32,747 bases of DNA, from the IMG/VR virus record IMGVR_UViG_3300028041_000004, positions 1-32,747 of that record; one strand, 5' to 3'. The notes under the pieces were generated by a model. That model worked only from the letters and a program-made list of their open reading frames with translations, was not told the DNA's origin and searched no databases. Below are positions 6,938 to 23,298 of the stretch, in pieces. Source of the stretch: a virus. The translations under genes and the position numbers were made by a program. Positions within the stretch are counted from its first letter, which is position 1, and the number at the start of each line of letters is the position of its first letter.

Positions 6938-8278
6938 ATGGCGGGGGACGAGAACGGCAACCCACAGCGGACCGTTGTTCTCGTTCCCCGCCGTGCCGGT
7001 CTCGCCGACCGCGACCGCCTGTGGGAGTTCGCCCGCAGCTGGTGGGCGAACGATTTCCCCGACTGGGCGATCGTCGAGGGCCACCACGAGATCGGACCGT
7101 TCAACCGGTCGAAGGCGCTCAACGACGCAGCCCGTTCCGCCGGCGACTGGGATGTGGCCGTTCTCATCGACGCCGATGTGCTCGCCCACCGAGACACCGT
7201 CCGCACCGCCGTCGACGTCGCGGCGGCCACCAATCGCATGGTCCTCGCCTACCACGAGAGGATCCACCTCTCGCAGCGGGGCACCGAGCGGGTGCTCGCC
7301 GGGTTCGACGGCAACTGGAAGCAGTCGGGCATGGTGCATCGGGTCTTCCTCGACTCGTGCTCGAGCGCCGTCGTCGTCTCCCGAAAGCTGTGGGACGACG
7401 TCGGTGGGTTCGACGAGAAGTTCTCCGGGTGGGGGTGGGAGGACGTCGCGTTCCGCATCGCGTGCGAGACGATCTCGGGTCATCCGATGGTGCAGCTCGC
7501 CGCCCCGCTGTTCCACCTGCACCATCGGGTGAGTAGCGAGAACAACACCCGCGAAGCCACCTACCAGGCGAACAAGGCGCGCGGCGACCGATACCGCGCC
7601 GCCCACTGGGACGTCGGTGCTGTCCGCCAACTCATTGACGAACCCGACCCCGTTGAGGTGCCGGTGGTCGGCCCGACCCGCATCCCCAGGATCCTGCACC
7701 GCACCGTCCCCGAAACGACCACCCCTCAAGTCGAGGCGTGGTGGGACCACTTTCGGATGCTCCACCCGGGTTGGGATCTCCGCACCTACCGTGATCCGCT
7801 CGACCCGGCCAACTGGCCGGAGACCGGCGACCTGTGGGAGCTGTGCCAGTCCGGCGCGCAGCGCGCCGGCCTGATCCGCCTGGAAGCCTTGTGGCGGTGG
7901 GGTGGCGTGTACGTCGACAGCGACGTCGAGCCATACCGCTCGCTCGAACCGTTGCTGCATCTGCCGGCGTTCGCCGCGTGGGAGGACGCCAAGGTCGTCC
8001 CTGACGCGGTGCTCGCCAGCGAACCCGGCCATCCCGCGTTCCGGCTCATGCTCGACCGGGCCCGTGCGTCGATCACCGCCGGTGCAAAGGCATGGGAGTC
8101 CGGTCCGGGCGTCACCACAGCGGTGCTTCCCGGCCGTCACGACGTGCTGTTGTTGCCGCCCGGCTCGTTCTTCCCGTACCACTACTCGGAGAAGCAGCGG
8201 CGCAGAGAGGACCACTTCACCGCTCAGCCGTGGGCGTTCGCCGCCCACCACTGGCACCACAGCTGGAAGGGCAAATGA
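6938..8278 (+). CDS. Two-domain glycosyltransferase
   Basis: A 446-aa protein starting at an ATG 8 nt after the capsid stop. It joins two GT-A-type modules. Residues 10-200 resemble galactosyltransferase-type GT2/GT27 domains: a DxD in LIDADV (D78, D80) and the C-terminal signature FDEKFSGWGWED (158-169). Residues 245-446 resemble the GT32 DxD sugar-transferase family (OCH1-like): IPRILHRTVP (249-258) and WGGVYVDSDVEP (321-332) with D327 and D329. Both domains keep their metal-binding acids, so both may be active, possibly adding two sugars in sequence. It overlaps the next transferase gene by 4 nt. Likely acts on capsid or tail proteins, or on a host surface glycan. Confidence 0.85.
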   Translation: MAGDENGNPQRTVVLVPRRAGLADRDRLWEFARSWWANDFPDWAIVEGHHEIGPFNRSKALNDAARSAGDWDVAVLIDADVLAHRDTVRTAVDVAAATNRMVLAYHERIHLSQRGTERVLAGFDGNWKQSGMVHRVFLDSCSSAVVVSRKLWDDVGGFDEKFSGWGWEDVAFRIACETISGHPMVQLAAPLFHLHHRVSSENNTREATYQANKARGDRYRAAHWDVGAVRQLIDEPDPVEVPVVGPTRIPRILHRTVPETTTPQVEAWWDHFRMLHPGWDLRTYRDPLDPANWPETGDLWELCQSGAQRAGLIRLEALWRWGGVYVDSDVEPYRSLEPLLHLPAFAAWEDAKVVPDAVLASEPGHPAFRLMLDRARASITAGAKAWESGPGVTTAVLPGRHDVLLLPPGSFFPYHYSEKQRRREDHFTAQPWAFAAHHWHHSWKGK

Positions 8279-8940
8279 GCGTCGCCGTGGTGATCCCGTG
8301 GAAAGCGGGATGCCCGCATCGGGAGCGCGCCCTCCGATGGGTACGGAACCGCTACGAAACGCTCGGCCTACCAGTCGTCGCCGGTGTCGTCGACGGCGAA
8401 TGGTGCAAGGCCGACGCTGTCGCCGCCGGGCTCGCCCTGACCGACGCCACGATGGTCGTGGTCGCCGACGCAGACGTGTGGTGCTCGCAGCTACCCGACG
8501 CGATCGACGCGGTAGCGGCAGGCGCTGCGTGGGCTGTGCCCCACGACCGGGTGCACCGTCTGACCGAGACGTCAACCGAACTGGTCCTCGCCGGGTGTGA
8601 GCCGAACCGGTCGATGGAATGCGACGAACGGCCATACCGAGGGCGCGCCGGCGGCGGCATCCTCGTCATCCACCGCGCGCTCTACCGCCAAGCCCCGTTC
8701 GACGCCAGGTTCGTCGGCTGGGGCCAAGAAGACGACGCCGCAGCCGTCGCCTGGTCCACGCTGTTCGGTCCGTCGTGGCGAGGATCGAGCCCGCTGTGGC
8801 ATCTGTGGCATCCCCCGCAGCAACGCATGAACCGCGTGCGCGGCAGCGACGCCAGCTGGGCCTTGTACCGCCGCTATGTGGCGGCCCGCCGGAATCCCGA
8901 GCGGATGCGCTCCCTGATCGGAGAGGTGGTGACCGTCTGA
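8275..8940 (+). CDS. Glycosyltransferase, GT2/GT27-like
   Basis: A 221-aa single-module transferase starting within an ATGA overlap. It has an N-terminal nucleotide-binding strand (SVAVVIPWKAGCPHRERAL), a DxD motif in VADADV (D65, D67) and the galactosyltransferase-type motif FDARFVGWGQEDD (142-154), where GWG-x-ED marks the acceptor site and catalytic base. It resembles the N-terminal half of the upstream transferase and may have arisen by duplication. The ATG of the head-tail connector gene overlaps its stop, so it is transcribed with the structural genes. Confidence 0.85.
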   Translation: MSVAVVIPWKAGCPHRERALRWVRNRYETLGLPVVAGVVDGEWCKADAVAAGLALTDATMVVVADADVWCSQLPDAIDAVAAGAAWAVPHDRVHRLTETSTELVLAGCEPNRSMECDERPYRGRAGGGILVIHRALYRQAPFDARFVGWGQEDDAAAVAWSTLFGPSWRGSSPLWHLWHPPQQRMNRVRGSDASWALYRRYVAARRNPERMRSLIGEVVTV

Positions 8941-11262: not shown

Positions 11263-11658
11263 GTGGCGTTCGAGGATTTCGACGCCGCCCGCCGCGAACG
11301 AGACCTCGAGCCCGTCGCCTTCCAGTTGGGAGGCGAACGGTTCGAGTGTGTGCCGGTCATGCCGGCGCAGGTCATGTTCGACTTCTTGGCTGGCGGCAGT
11401 TCGACCGTCGAGCGGTTCCAGACGGCGGTGGCGTTCATCGTCGGCGTGCTGGTGGAACCGGACGGCGAGGAACGGTTCCGCAAGGTGCTCGACACCCGCG
11501 ACGACCCGATCGACTACGACACGCTCAGCGCGCTCGTCGCATGGCTCGTCTCCACCTATACGGGCCGCCCTACGACGCGGCCGTCCGCCTCGCCCAGTGG
11601 GCTTTCCGACACTGGGCGGTCATCGAAGCCGAAGTCCCGCAAGGGTTCTGGTCGCTGA
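11263..11658 (+). CDS. Tail assembly chaperone (G-like, zero frame)
   Basis: A 131-aa protein starting at a GTG 4 nt after the major tail stop. Residues 1-97 look like a folded chaperone (FEDFDAARRERDLEPVAF ... TLSALVAWLVSTYTG). The last 30 residues are a low-complexity Ser/Arg/Lys/Pro tail, as expected where the zero frame runs through sequence selected for another frame. Together with the -1 frame extension, it forms the G/GT pair that binds the tape measure and recruits tail-tube subunits. Confidence 0.8.
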   Translation: MAFEDFDAARRERDLEPVAFQLGGERFECVPVMPAQVMFDFLAGGSSTVERFQTAVAFIVGVLVEPDGEERFRKVLDTRDDPIDYDTLSALVAWLVSTYTGRPTTRPSASPSGLSDTGRSSKPKSRKGSGR

Positions 11659-16211: not shown

Positions 16212-18196
16212 CCTTCCGCGCCGACGGGCACCTCCTCAATCGAATCCGAGTCGAGGCAGTGCCAACGTCATCTATCCGCAGCGACGCTGACGGTTCTCCG
16301 CGCCGGCTTCGCGCCGTCACGGTGACACGAGACGGTGCCCCGGTCTCTGTGTTCAGGGACGCTGACTGCACCGCAGAGATAGAAGCGCCGACCACAGACC
16401 GGCATGGCAAGGCTGTGTTCTTCGTAGACAAGCCAGGCACCTACGAGGTGACTGTCGCCAACACCGACACGGCCCGGTCGCCGATGCCCCAAACGTGGCA
16501 GGTGTACGGCCCGCCTGGTGGCGGTGGAATCTCCGAGCAGCAGCTCGCCGATGCCGTGGCCGGCGTTGTCGGCGCAGCGCCTGAGGCGCTCGACACGCTC
16601 AACGAGCTTGCCGCGGCTCTCGGCGACGACGCGAACTTCGCTGCGAGCGTCACCACGGCACTCGCCGGGAAAATCTCGGCGACGGAGAAGGGCGCGGCGA
16701 ATGGTGTCGCGACGCTCGACTCCGACGCCAAGCTGACACCGTCACAATCGGCCACGAGTGGAGCGGCGCTGTCGGTCGAGTCGTTCGGTGGTGTGGGCGA
16801 CAACTCGACCGACAACGCGGCCGCACTCGTGGCTGCTGAGAACGCCGCCCGTCTCGCTGGTGTGGGCATCAGGATGGGCAAGGGCATCTTCCGGTCGTCG
16901 GTCGCCCCGACCATCGACTGGAGCGGCGGCTTTCTGGAGGGGGAAGGATCGGGGTCGACGACCGTCGCCGAGACGGGCGTCACCGTCCTCCGAATCACCG
17001 ACACTGCGGCCAACGGGGTAAACCTCGGCGGCACGGGCGACAGCGCTGTCCGCTATGACCTCGCTCTCCGCAACCTTGTGATCGAAGTCCCCAACTCGGG
17101 CACGGGCGTCGGGATCAACGCGGGTGGCGACCGCATCAAGAACCACGTCGAGATCGAAAACGTGCGGGTGCGACGTTTCGGGTCGCACGGCCTGGTCACC
17201 AAGTTCTGCGACTACCTCCGAATGGACGGCGTCATCATCCGCAACAACGGAGGCGATCCGTGGTACGCCGACCAGGCTACGAACGCCTGCACCATGCGGG
17301 GCGGCGCTCTCGTCGGAACGGGCGTCTCGGGTAACGGGGCGGCGGGGTTGCGAGCAGTCGACATGGACGGATGCGGCCTGTGGGGCGTGGAGTTCGGCCA
17401 GATTGATTACGGGATCGTCGAGAGCGGCGGCGGCTCGCAGGGGGTCACCTTCACCGACTGCCGCATGGAGACGGTCTACCTCCGCCACGTCGTGCTCGGA
17501 AATGGGTCGATTCCGTACACGAGCCGCTGGGCGTTCAACGAGTGCTCCTTCTACGGGAACAACACCCTGACCCCGCTTGTGCTCGTGGACGGCGCCCGCC
17601 AGGTGACGTTCGACAAGTGCGTTGCTACGCAGCTTCCCGCTGGTGGCGTGTTCGTCAAGAGCAACCGCGCCACGAGCATCAACAAGGCCATCAAGGTCAT
17701 CGACTGCGTCGTTGACGCTGGCCGGAACCTCCTTGAGGGCAACGGCGCCCCTGGGACCATGTACAACCGCAACGTCAACGTCGTCGGCGGTGACGCTTCA
17801 GACGTATTCCAGGGGCCGTTCGCTCTGTCGTTCAGGGTGAAGGCAGCCGACTTGGTGTCCGCGGGAGACAAGCTGCTCGGCGCCGCTCCAAGGTCGAGTC
17901 TGCTGGTCCGCAGCGTGTACGTCACGAGCGACACTGCGATCGGGAACAGCTCGTCCGACTACTACACCTTCGACGTGCGGCGCTTCACGAACAGCAACCA
18001 GGGCACGACGGCGTCGAGGACGACGCAGACGGCGGGGTTGTGGGCGACGGCGTTCCGTTCGCAGTCGTTGACGCTCGGCTCGCAGGCGACGTTCAACCAG
18101 GGCGACACGTTCGTGCTCAACCTTGGCATCACAGGGTCGCCAACGGCCCTGGGCGATCTGGTTGTCACCGTGAACTACGACCCGTCAGGCGACTGA
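16208..18196 (+). CDS. Tailspike/tail fibre with beta-helix domain
   Basis: A 662-aa protein. Residues 1-105 are a beta domain (attachment module, with a VTVTRDGAPVSVFRD Ig-like stretch). Residues 110-165 carry a helical phage-fibre segment (ALDTLNELAAALGDD, NFAASVTTALAGK). From about residue 190 the pectate-lyase-like right-handed beta-helix begins (SFGGVGDNSTDNAAAL) and runs to about 540, with typical N-rich turns and short VxFxxC strands. The C-terminus (about 550-662) is a beta cap, probably for trimerisation. Such proteins bind and often degrade surface polysaccharide; no active site can be fixed by eye. It ends with a tandem TGA TAA. Confidence 0.88.
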   Translation: MTFRADGHLLNRIRVEAVPTSSIRSDADGSPRRLRAVTVTRDGAPVSVFRDADCTAEIEAPTTDRHGKAVFFVDKPGTYEVTVANTDTARSPMPQTWQVYGPPGGGGISEQQLADAVAGVVGAAPEALDTLNELAAALGDDANFAASVTTALAGKISATEKGAANGVATLDSDAKLTPSQSATSGAALSVESFGGVGDNSTDNAAALVAAENAARLAGVGIRMGKGIFRSSVAPTIDWSGGFLEGEGSGSTTVAETGVTVLRITDTAANGVNLGGTGDSAVRYDLALRNLVIEVPNSGTGVGINAGGDRIKNHVEIENVRVRRFGSHGLVTKFCDYLRMDGVIIRNNGGDPWYADQATNACTMRGGALVGTGVSGNGAAGLRAVDMDGCGLWGVEFGQIDYGIVESGGGSQGVTFTDCRMETVYLRHVVLGNGSIPYTSRWAFNECSFYGNNTLTPLVLVDGARQVTFDKCVATQLPAGGVFVKSNRATSINKAIKVIDCVVDAGRNLLEGNGAPGTMYNRNVNVVGGDASDVFQGPFALSFRVKAADLVSAGDKLLGAAPRSSLLVRSVYVTSDTAIGNSSSDYYTFDVRRFTNSNQGTTASRTTQTAGLWATAFRSQSLTLGSQATFNQGDTFVLNLGITGSPTALGDLVVTVNYDPSGD

Positions 18197-18217: not shown

Positions 18218-18230
18218 AGATGTGCCCTTT

Positions 18231-18257
18231 CCGGCAACGTGGAATCCGTGTCGGAAC
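18231..18257 (+). repeat. 27-bp direct repeat, copy 1
   Basis: A perfect 27-bp repeat beginning CCGGCAACGTGG and ending GTGTCGGAAC; copy 2 starts 57 bp downstream. With the preceding TT, the outer bases form an inverted TTCCG/CGGAA pair, giving it an operator-like look. It lies upstream of a leaderless promoter for a small HTH gene. Confidence 0.8.
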
Positions 18258-18287
18258 GCCCGCGTCTGCCTGGAAAGCGTTCCGAAT

Positions 18288-18314
18288 CCGGCAACGTGGA
18301 ATCCGTGTCGGAAC
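18288..18314 (+). repeat. 27-bp direct repeat, copy 2
   Basis: Second perfect copy, ending 2 nt before the TACGCT -10 element of the HTH gene, so it would overlap the -35 region. GTTCCG at 18279-18284 can pair with CGGAAC in either copy, so alternative hairpins are also possible if the region is transcribed from upstream. Confidence 0.8.
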
Positions 18315-18330: not shown

Positions 18331-18606
18331 GTGGCGCACCCGCACAAGGGCGAGGTTCCCCGGAAGATTGCAGCTCGTCTGGTCGAGCTCCAACAGACGC
18401 TCGACGCGACGCGCGAGGAGCGGGACAATCTGATCGTCCAGGCGCTGAACGAGGGCGGATCACTTACCACCGTCGCTGAGCTCGTCGGCCTCTCACCATC
18501 CGGCGTACGGAAGATCGCCAAGCAGCGCGGCTGGACCGACGCAGCGTGGAAGGCACGGCTCGAGGAGCGCCGAGACTGGTCGTTCCTCCGACCCGACAAG
18601 GATTGA
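18331..18606 (+). CDS. Small HTH DNA-binding protein
   Basis: A 91-aa protein with start chosen at GTG 18331 because of the leaderless promoter; an in-frame ATG at 18220 would add 37 residues that merely translate the two DNA repeats. Residues 9-42 form a charged helix with coiled-coil character (RKIAARLVELQQTLDATREE). Residues 46-68 are a helix-turn-helix (SLTTVAELVGLSPSGVRKIAKQ). The C-terminus is Trp/Arg-rich. It probably binds DNA, plausibly the two 27-bp repeats upstream (inference). It is not a tail protein and interrupts the tail operon, as a moron would. A structured RNA starts 4 nt after its stop. Confidence 0.7.
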   Translation: MAHPHKGEVPRKIAARLVELQQTLDATREERDNLIVQALNEGGSLTTVAELVGLSPSGVRKIAKQRGWTDAAWKARLEERRDWSFLRPDKD

Positions 18607-18610
18607 TCGG

Positions 18611-18720
18611 GTTGCAGTGGCCACCATCCTTTGCCTTTCGGCTCGCTGGCTAGGCGAACGGATGCGGTCAACTGGGCTGCCAGCCCTAGACCCGCTCTAG
18701 CAGGCGCAGGCCACTGCAAC
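18611..18720 (+). ncRNA. Candidate structured RNA, four-way junction
   Basis: A perfect 12-bp closing helix pairs GTTGCAGTGGCC (18611-18622) with GGCCACTGCAAC (18709-18720). Inside, 18625-18635 pairs with 18653-18664 as 11 bp with one bulged C (18659) and one U-G pair (18632-18656). Two further hairpins follow: GGGCT/AGCCC (18674-18678/18682-18686) and CTAGA/TCTAG (18686-18690/18696-18700), which share C18686. The wobble is U-G only if the plus strand is transcribed (A-C on the minus strand), which gives the orientation. No coding frame is apparent. It is not a tRNA: no T-loop consensus, too long. It matches no RNA family I recognise. Confidence 0.65.
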
Positions 18721-18722
18721 AC

Positions 18723-18779
18723 CACGAACGGTACAGCAGGCCGCGCGCGAAGTCATCACTACAGCTGCCTGCATTCGTG
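18723..18779 (+). other. Second nested stem-loop after the structured RNA
   Basis: CACGAA (18723-18728) pairs with TTCGTG (18774-18779) and, inside it, GCAGGC (18736-18741) pairs with GCCTGC (18767-18772), separated by an asymmetric 7/1-nt internal loop. It lies 2 nt after the four-way junction and 47 nt before the next start codon. It may be a second domain of the same RNA or part of the leader of the downstream gene. Confidence 0.45.
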
Positions 18780-18826
18780 ACCTTCAGCCCGACGTTTCGA
18801 CAACGCACTCGTGAGGTGATCGCACC

Positions 18827-19855
18827 GTGGCCCTCTCAGTCATCGGGTCGTTCACCATGCCGATGGGCTCGAGCGCCGACTACTTCAAGCGGGTCTTTCG
18901 CTACGGCAACTACCTGATCGCCCTGCGCCCCGATACGTCGCCACGGCCGACGGCGACCATCCTCGACGTTTCGGACCCGACGGCTCCGACGCTGGTGGCT
19001 CATCGCATGTCCACCGTTGCTGGCTTCTGGCAGGGGGCGGTCAAGAGCAGCAACTGGCTCTACCTAGTCGGGTCGAGCTCTGCGTCGTTCGGTACGGGAG
19101 CAAGAGTCACCAAGGTCGACCTCACACAACTCCCGTTGTGGGTCGAGACGACAGGCACGTACACGGCGACCAACGAACACGCTGGTGGGCCTGTCGTCCT
19201 GCCGAGCGGTCGCCTCGCGGTGCAGCATCTGTCGTCGGCGCCCACATCGCGGTGGCGGACGTGGGATGTCTCCGGTACTCCGACGGTTGTCTCGACGTCC
19301 GCGTCCGCAAACACGTCAGACCCTCGGTACAACTTCTACCAGCGGCAAGCCGTTCTGGCCGACGGGCCGCGAGTGTTTCACACGGCCTGGGGTACGACTG
19401 TCCTTCGGCGAGTCTCATACGCGTCGGAGCTCGCCCCAACGCTCGAGGGCACGACGACCCTTCCGACGTCTGCCACGAGCAGCCCGCGCGGTATCGAAGC
19501 GCGCGGCGACTACCTGTGGGTGCTCACATCCAGCAGCCGGATCGTCACTTATGACGTCTCCACGCCGTCGGCGCCCGTCCAGCTCGCCAACAATCTGCCG
19601 ACTGGTGTCACCCGCGAAGTCATCTCCGCCTTCAATGAGGGTGTAGCCGACGACGCTCTCATCTCCGCAGGGGACCGCGTGGCCGTACACGACGGCCCTG
19701 TCATCGGGAACCCGACCGACAGCGTTGCGATCGGCACAACGGCCCGTGATGCTATCGGCGACGCTGACGCGATCTGGGTCGTCGCCGACCAGTGGCTGTA
19801 CGTGATCGGCCACGACTACGGCGGCGGCTGGACGGTCGGCTCCATCAAGTTCTGA
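18827..19855 (+). CDS. Beta-propeller tail protein (LVIVD-like repeats)
   Basis: A 342-aa protein with GTG start 8 nt after GAGGTG. It is built from about six beta-blade repeats of the type Y-x-YL-x-AL...TATILDVSDPTAPTLV; others are RVTKVDLTQLPLWVE, RWRTWDVSGTPTVV and RIVTYDVSTPSAPVQL. This resembles LVIVD-repeat propellers, usually found on bacterial cell surfaces. There is no signal peptide. Placed between tailspike and endolysin, it is probably a receptor-binding or tail-decoration protein. A cluster of Ser/Thr suggests possible glycosylation sites (inference). Confidence 0.75.
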   Translation: MALSVIGSFTMPMGSSADYFKRVFRYGNYLIALRPDTSPRPTATILDVSDPTAPTLVAHRMSTVAGFWQGAVKSSNWLYLVGSSSASFGTGARVTKVDLTQLPLWVETTGTYTATNEHAGGPVVLPSGRLAVQHLSSAPTSRWRTWDVSGTPTVVSTSASANTSDPRYNFYQRQAVLADGPRVFHTAWGTTVLRRVSYASELAPTLEGTTTLPTSATSSPRGIEARGDYLWVLTSSSRIVTYDVSTPSAPVQLANNLPTGVTREVISAFNEGVADDALISAGDRVAVHDGPVIGNPTDSVAIGTTARDAIGDADAIWVVADQWLYVIGHDYGGGWTVGSIKF

Positions 19856-22247: not shown

Positions 22248-23189
22248 TCAGCTGGCGACGTGCGCCGACAGCACGAACGTGGCGTTCCGATCTAGCGACC
22301 GCTTGTGCTGGTCGTACCTGCTCGTCACACGAGGATCGCTGTGGCCGGCGGAATGCTGAACGTCCCGCAACGGCACCCCAGCGTCCAGGGCGAGCGTTAT
22401 GAACGTCCGACGCAGCGAATGGGGAGTGATGTGCTTCGACACACCAGCCGCCCTCAGCACCCGCTGCACCACCCGGCTCGCCGAATAGCGATCCATCCTC
22501 GTCCCATAGTCGGACCGGAACAACGGGCCCGACCGGCGATCACCAACGCACAAACTCACCGCCTTGTACGTCGTCACCGACAGCGGGATCGTCGCGACCT
22601 TCTGCCCCTTGCGCATCGTCCGCACCGTGTGGTGACCGTCGAGATCCTCGATCGTCTCGATGTTCACGCCGAGCGCCTCCGAGATCCGCAGCCCGTTCAA
22701 CCCGAGGAGAGCGAAGAGGGCGTAGTCGCGATGCCAGCCCTTGCGGTCGGTGCGCTGCGAGACGTCGAGGCACTTCATCAGCTCGATCAGCGACAGATAG
22801 GGCCGGGCGATGTCGTCGGCGACATTCGGCAGCTTCACCTTCGCGGTCGGGTCGCGGTCGACGAGTTCCTCGTCGAGCAGCCACCCGTAGAACGAGCGGA
22901 CCGCGCTCAGCTTGTGCGAGACGGTCGCCGGCAGGTTGTGGCGTCGCTCGGCGCAGGTCGCGCCCCACAGTTCGACGTGGCTGCGGCGGACGTCGGTGTA
23001 GTGGATCCCGAGGTCGTCCAGGAACCGGAAGTAGTCGGCGAGAATCAGCGCATAGTTGCGGCGCGTGTCCGGGCGGAACGACGTCGACCACGCTCGGACG
23101 AGCGTTTCGCGGCTGGGGCCGACGTTGCGGTCGCGTTCCGAAACGATCACCGGCGTGAGCACGCGCGTACTCTGAGTCGAAGACTCCAT
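22248..23189 (-). CDS. Tyrosine recombinase 1 (XerC/D-like)
   Basis: A 313-aa site-specific recombinase. An N-terminal SAM-like core-binding domain (about 25-120) precedes the catalytic domain. Catalytic residues are R168 (GLRIS), K194/K197, H257 and R260 (HSLRR), H283 (AGHSD) and nucleophile Y292 (SRYDQ). The set is complete. The start ATG at 23189 has AAGGAG upstream on the minus strand. It lacks an AP2-type arm-binding domain, so it resembles Xer enzymes more than lambda-type integrases. It may resolve dimers or integrate at a different site from the second recombinase. Confidence 0.9.
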   Translation of the reverse strand: MESSTQSTRVLTPVIVSERDRNVGPSRETLVRAWSTSFRPDTRRNYALILADYFRFLDDLGIHYTDVRRSHVELWGATCAERRHNLPATVSHKLSAVRSFYGWLLDEELVDRDPTAKVKLPNVADDIARPYLSLIELMKCLDVSQRTDRKGWHRDYALFALLGLNGLRISEALGVNIETIEDLDGHHTVRTMRKGQKVATIPLSVTTYKAVSLCVGDRRSGPLFRSDYGTRMDRYSASRVVQRVLRAAGVSKHITPHSLRRTFITLALDAGVPLRDVQHSAGHSDPRVTSRYDQHKRSLDRNATFVLSAHVAS

Positions 23190-23214
23190 GGAGGTACAGC
23201 TCCTTGTGGGTCCA

Positions 23215-23249
23215 GGCCCTCGCTCGGAGTTCCCGCTCCGACGGGGGCC
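23215..23249 (-). promoter_or_regulatory. Hairpin in recombinase 1 leader
   Basis: TCGGAG (23224-23229) pairs with CTCCGA (23236-23241), enclosed by GGCCC/GGGCC (23215-23219/23245-23249). It lies 26 nt upstream of the recombinase start codon and downstream of its proposed promoter, so it would be in the 5' leader of the mRNA. A regulatory role is inferred only from position. Confidence 0.4.
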
Positions 23250-23268
23250 GCTTACTTGTCGAACCAGA

Positions 23269-23298
23269 ATCGTGCGCGCAGATTGTGGCGGCCGTCAA
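23269..23298 (-). promoter_or_regulatory. Candidate promoter for recombinase 1
   Basis: On the minus strand TTGACG (23298-23293) is followed after 18 nt by CACGAT (23274-23269). The -35 is good and the -10 weak. A small palindrome (TCAC-N5-GTGA, 23308-23320) lies just upstream and could bind a regulator. Confidence 0.4.

Follow-up and report, generated by a model that had tools for sequence, protein, structure and literature searches.

A non-coding gap between the tail and lysis genes of a soil-type bacteriophage carries a perfect 12-bp inverted repeat, the interior of which can be drawn as further helices. This locus raises the question of whether the repeat closes a structured RNA, as an earlier note on this DNA supposed, whether it serves the phage in some other way, or whether it has no function at all. 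The window (the whole stretch of DNA analysed) is the 32.7-kb (32,747-nt) record itself, with 67.7% G+C. Its genes include those for terminase, portal, tape measure, tail proteins, an amidase endolysin, a methyltransferase and an exonuclease; the best portal matches are to phages of Gordonia, Arthrobacter and Streptomyces, and this gene content suggests a temperate phage of actinobacterial type. Two tyrosine recombinases are encoded, a XerC/D-like one with Xer-like N-terminal domains (22248-23189, - strand) and a typical phage integrase (25357-26469, + strand). A glycosyltransferase-like gene (8092-8940; phrog_1721, E 4e-18) lies amid the structural genes and has a counterpart at 48% identity in comparison locus L099.

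Position and predicted fold of the element

The element follows a small HTH gene and precedes the propeller and endolysin genes, with the following features in order:

18230-18257 and 18287-18314 (span 18230-18314), + strand: a 28-bp direct repeat in two identical copies, immediately before the HTH gene or at its start
18331-18606, + strand: gene for a small HTH DNA-binding protein, 91 aa from GTG (128 aa from an in-frame ATG at 18220)
18611-18622, + strand: 5' arm of the closing helix, GTTGCAGTGGCC, exact inverted repeat, paired in the MFE structure
18625-18664, + strand: internal hairpin P2, CATCCTTTGCC...GGCGAA-c-GGATG, with one bulge, in the MFE structure
18666-18692, + strand: hairpin P3, GGTC/GACC with inner GGGCT/AGCCC, in the MFE structure
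18693-18706, + strand: weak hairpin P4, CGCT/GGCG, in the MFE structure
18709-18720, + strand: 3' arm of the closing helix, GGCCACTGCAAC, exact inverted repeat, paired in the MFE structure
18721-18826, + strand: remainder of the gap, with the ribosome-binding site GAGGTGAT before the GTG at 18827, roughly 90 nt from the stem

The HTH reading frame stops with TGA at 18604-18606, the 5' arm begins 4 nt later, and the 220 nt from 18607 to 18826 are without clear coding composition, which bears out the placing of the element in a non-coding gap directly behind this gene. The HTH protein has a weak match to the HTH family phrog_7061 (E 2e-4), and searches of Pfam and NCBIfam with E limits of 0.001-0.01 returned no family; distant homologues were found in the Gordonia phages Gudmit and Annalisa, with 34% identity and a weak E of 2e-3. 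The offset between the two copies of the 28-bp repeat, 57 bp from start to start, is a multiple of 3, and the window holds no further copies; the 21-bp core of the repeat has no exact match in IMG/VR, and phages gave short chance matches only. These repeats are candidate operators or, if translation begins at 18220, candidate repeated codons. Given the two upstream repeats, the HTH unit would resemble a self-contained cassette.

The two arms match perfectly over 12 bp and are 86 nt apart. In the predicted fold the 5' arm is lengthened by two G-C pairs (18609-18610) past a bulged A, resulting in a stem of 12-14 bp. The thermodynamic folding that the earlier note had recommended returns, for the + strand of 18600-18730, the four-way junction as drawn. 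Its energy is -61.3 kcal/mol (z -3.99), the MFE structure is identical to the centroid, and the ensemble diversity is 8.2 compared to 24.6 in shuffles. All helices described in the note are present in this structure, i.e. the perfect closing helix, the 11-bp internal helix with a single bulged C, the GGUC..GACC hairpin and the small fourth hairpin. The note had also derived the orientation from a sole wobble pair. This holds for the two long helices; the whole MFE structure contains four G-U pairs, three of which are located in the small helices, and therefore the argument is weaker than stated. The + strand does fold better than the - strand (-57.9 kcal/mol, z -2.2), but the preference is slight, and as DNA the element folds equally well on both strands.

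The sequence ACCA directly follows the 3' arm (18721-18724), as the note had observed, and it is the one feature in favour of a tRNA-like decoy. A match of four bases is expected often, however, and the CC of the ACC is paired in the MFE structure. The closing stem has 12-14 bp instead of 7, the sequence contains no GTTCRA T-loop, ARAGORN finds no tRNA or tmRNA in the window, and no Rfam family matches at E up to 5. The tRNA-like reading is thus without support, and we give it hardly any credence.

Frequency of comparable repeats and folds

The earlier note considered a perfect 12-bp repeat within so short a distance very unlikely to arise by chance, a judgement that does not survive comparison with the background. 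The real window contains four perfect repeats with arms of 12 bp or longer, three of them inside genes, while shuffled windows hold 0.97 such repeats on average and 64% have at least one. In 217 kb of related phages, perfect repeats of this length with loops of 40-130 occur 15-16 times. This amounts to one in about 14 kb, and almost all lie in ORFs with coding-like composition; the two repeats of the window with comparable loops represent the same density. On the other hand, when the 220-nt gap alone was shuffled 1500 times, no shuffle held such a repeat. The repeat is therefore beyond chance for the gap alone, and not for the whole window.

These counts lend weight to an explanation according to which the element has no function and is a GC-rich inverted repeat of background frequency that fell into a gap by accident. 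With roughly 3 kb of gaps in the window, as estimated from the gene list, the rate observed in the relatives gives about a 20% chance of finding one repeat in them. The absence of such repeats from the shuffled gap argues against an accident, as do the z-score of the whole element (-4.3) and its position abutting a gene end. We regard the accident as quite possible, if short of probable.

Stability of the fold points in the same direction as the counts of repeats. The interior between the arms, tested alone, is no more stable than shuffles (z -1.06, p 0.14 on the + strand; z 0.06 on the - strand), and hence the excess over chance sits in the closing stem; the four-way junction beyond that stem is at chance level. 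P2 alone does beat shuffles (p 0.0025), but it was chosen post hoc, after the fold had been seen. In a scan of the full window, carried out at reduced shuffle depth and for the + strand only, the 120-nt segment with the element ranks ninth of about 545 segments by fold z-score, and coding segments fold better, e.g. the one at 11281 with z about -6.

The latter belongs to a long near-perfect fold within coding DNA at 11270-11410. Another one is found in the fibre gene (16751-16833), with 34-nt arms that are 85% complementary. A strong fold at 23160-23290 (151 nt, -72.3 kcal/mol, z -3.2) spans the start of the XerC/D-like recombinase gene and the gap before it, and may represent a regulatory or an attachment region.

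The rarity of the repeat was thus overstated, and the stability of the element is unremarkable in phage genomes so rich in G+C. There is a methodological lesson in this result: in phage genomes of 68% G+C, neither a perfect 12-bp repeat nor a fold with z near -4 is unusual, even within genes, and therefore comparative or transcript evidence is needed.

Relatives of the element and of its neighbourhood

Comparison of the element with the covariance models of 4227 Rfam families gave no match at the gathering score or at E up to 5, in agreement with the earlier note, which had recognised no known RNA family. Searches with blastn against phages and plasmids returned only chance matches of 19-23 nt with E of 1 or more, and the exact arm pattern has no match in IMG/VR. 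The covariance-model search recommended by the note was carried out with a single-sequence model over related and comparison loci and 46 whole records (about 50 phages); it yielded chance-level scores only and no homologue.

In GTDB genomes the exact arm pattern has seven matches, all in two Prevotella species. We rejected them as homologues, as they are dispersed long hairpins that differ from the element in interior, G+C and host type. The genomes of these two species contain dispersed elements of ~100 bp, with near-perfect stems beginning TTGCAGTGGCCGCC, one copy per locus and a variable middle, which look like a REP/MITE-like repeat family.

The history of the region has a bearing on how these negative results should be read. 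A portal profile retrieves 80 related contigs from IMG/VR, with identities reaching 78%, and these relatives have the genes from terminase to capsid (the head module) in common with the window. Neither the tape-measure, minor-tail and fibre genes nor the HTH and propeller genes match anything in any portal relative compared, and the HTH, tail and tape-measure proteins have no relative in IMG/VR. The element and the HTH gene are absent from 48 whole related records, save for one marginal HTH-type match (E 0.007). Because the tail module of these relatives is unrelated, absence of the element from them is no evidence against an RNA, and the structured RNA envisaged in the earlier note stays a prediction. 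For the tail region as a whole (9.2-20 kb), hardly any relatives can be detected in IMG/VR or among named phages, and such an orphan region beside a portal that is 71-78% identical to several contigs indicates a sharp exchange of modules.

A trans-acting non-coding RNA, processed from the late operon or expressed within it, has a precedent among actinophages: three abundant late intergenic RNAs have been described in Rhodococcus phage WC1, one of which (nc_2) maps mid-genome, and similar RNAs with no function assigned are known from mycobacteriophages (PMC10986025). The compact fold with paired ends would suit such a molecule. However, Rfam, pattern, BLAST and covariance searches provided neither a family nor a homologue, no promoter-like site was found, and the interior does not exceed chance. 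While a phage RNA is possible from precedent, nothing specific points to one here, and we consider it unlikely; the packaged, anti-defence or regulator RNA that the earlier note suggested would be guesses. One form of it would be a new small RNA with a four-way junction that is made from the late operon and acts in trans, e.g. against a host nuclease or regulator, and whose relatives are missing since the tail module is unsampled; we deem this variant very improbable. If true, the trans-acting RNA would constitute a new family.

It is also conceivable that the repeat acts as DNA, either as two half-sites of an operator bound by the HTH protein or as an invertible segment for a tyrosine recombinase. 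It is an exact inverted repeat adjoining an HTH gene, in a phage with two recombinases of this kind, one of them XerC/D-like, and the equal folding of both strands as DNA agrees with such a site. Yet no further copy of the arm occurs above chance in the window, no sigma-70-type promoter is found in either orientation, and at least 3.5 kb separate the element from the recombinase genes. A MITE or another mobile palindrome was rejected, as the element is present in a single copy in the window and has no target-site duplication at its ends. On balance we find a DNA-level site distinctly unlikely.

A possible role in the late mRNA and comparison with known systems

The reading that we prefer, with less than even confidence, is that the element is a cis-acting structure in the late rightward mRNA, where the HTH transcription unit has its 3' end. 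The closing stem of 12-14 bp would slow down RNA polymerase and/or block 3' exonucleases, and in this manner would separate the HTH message from the downstream propeller and endolysin genes or set its level relative to them, while the branched interior would be filler whose pairing is fortuitous. Transcription through the element, as well as termination or stabilisation by it, is inferred. The position of the element in a non-coding gap, just past the HTH stop, and the well-defined + strand fold with its low ensemble diversity are consistent with this proposal, and the confinement of the excess stability to the closing stem fits a function that requires the stem only. The distance to the next ribosome-binding site is too great for the stem to mask it.

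Additional support for the cis-acting structure comes from the Gordonia phages Gudmit and Annalisa, in which the last minor tail gene is followed immediately by a small cassette with the distant HTH homologue. In the gap behind this cassette lies a strong hairpin, rich in G+C and with T after it. This hairpin looks like a normal intrinsic terminator, and since it stands at the corresponding place, we prefer a role at the transcript end; the parallel is an analogy of position, not homology. In Annalisa, too, two tyrosine recombinases are encoded, after the HTH cassette. Against the proposal, the similarity to the Gordonia HTH proteins is weak, their cassette precedes integration genes and not lysis genes, the element has no U-tract and an apex of 86 nt, and a terminator scan found none. 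Moreover, the searches gave no homologue in which the pairs could covary, and perfect stems of this length occur at background density in these genomes. A cis-acting structure and an accident without function are nearly tied, and the element is at best a local mRNA structure rather than a demonstrated new RNA.

With respect to known systems, tRNA-like structures have in common with the element only the ACCA adjoining a closing stem; they possess a 7-bp acceptor and a T-loop, whereas the element has neither and gives no ARAGORN or Rfam signal. The late non-coding RNAs of actinophages (nc_1 to nc_3 of WC1, and the right- and left-end RNAs of mycobacteriophages) are intergenic like the element, which also occurs in a temperate phage of actinobacterial type; they were seen by RNA-seq, whereas the element is known here from its sequence, and no sequence relation to them was found. 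Intrinsic terminators combine a loop of 3-8 nt with a run of T, while the 12-bp stem of the element encloses a branched interior of 86 nt and is followed by ACCACGAACGG, which contains no run of T, and for these reasons a standard intrinsic terminator was rejected. Nonetheless, the element shares with terminators and with the intercistronic 3' stabilising hairpins of late phage mRNAs a G+C-rich perfect stem right after a gene. If it does act in cis in the late mRNA, it would be a further case of a phage dividing up its polycistronic message with no standard terminator.
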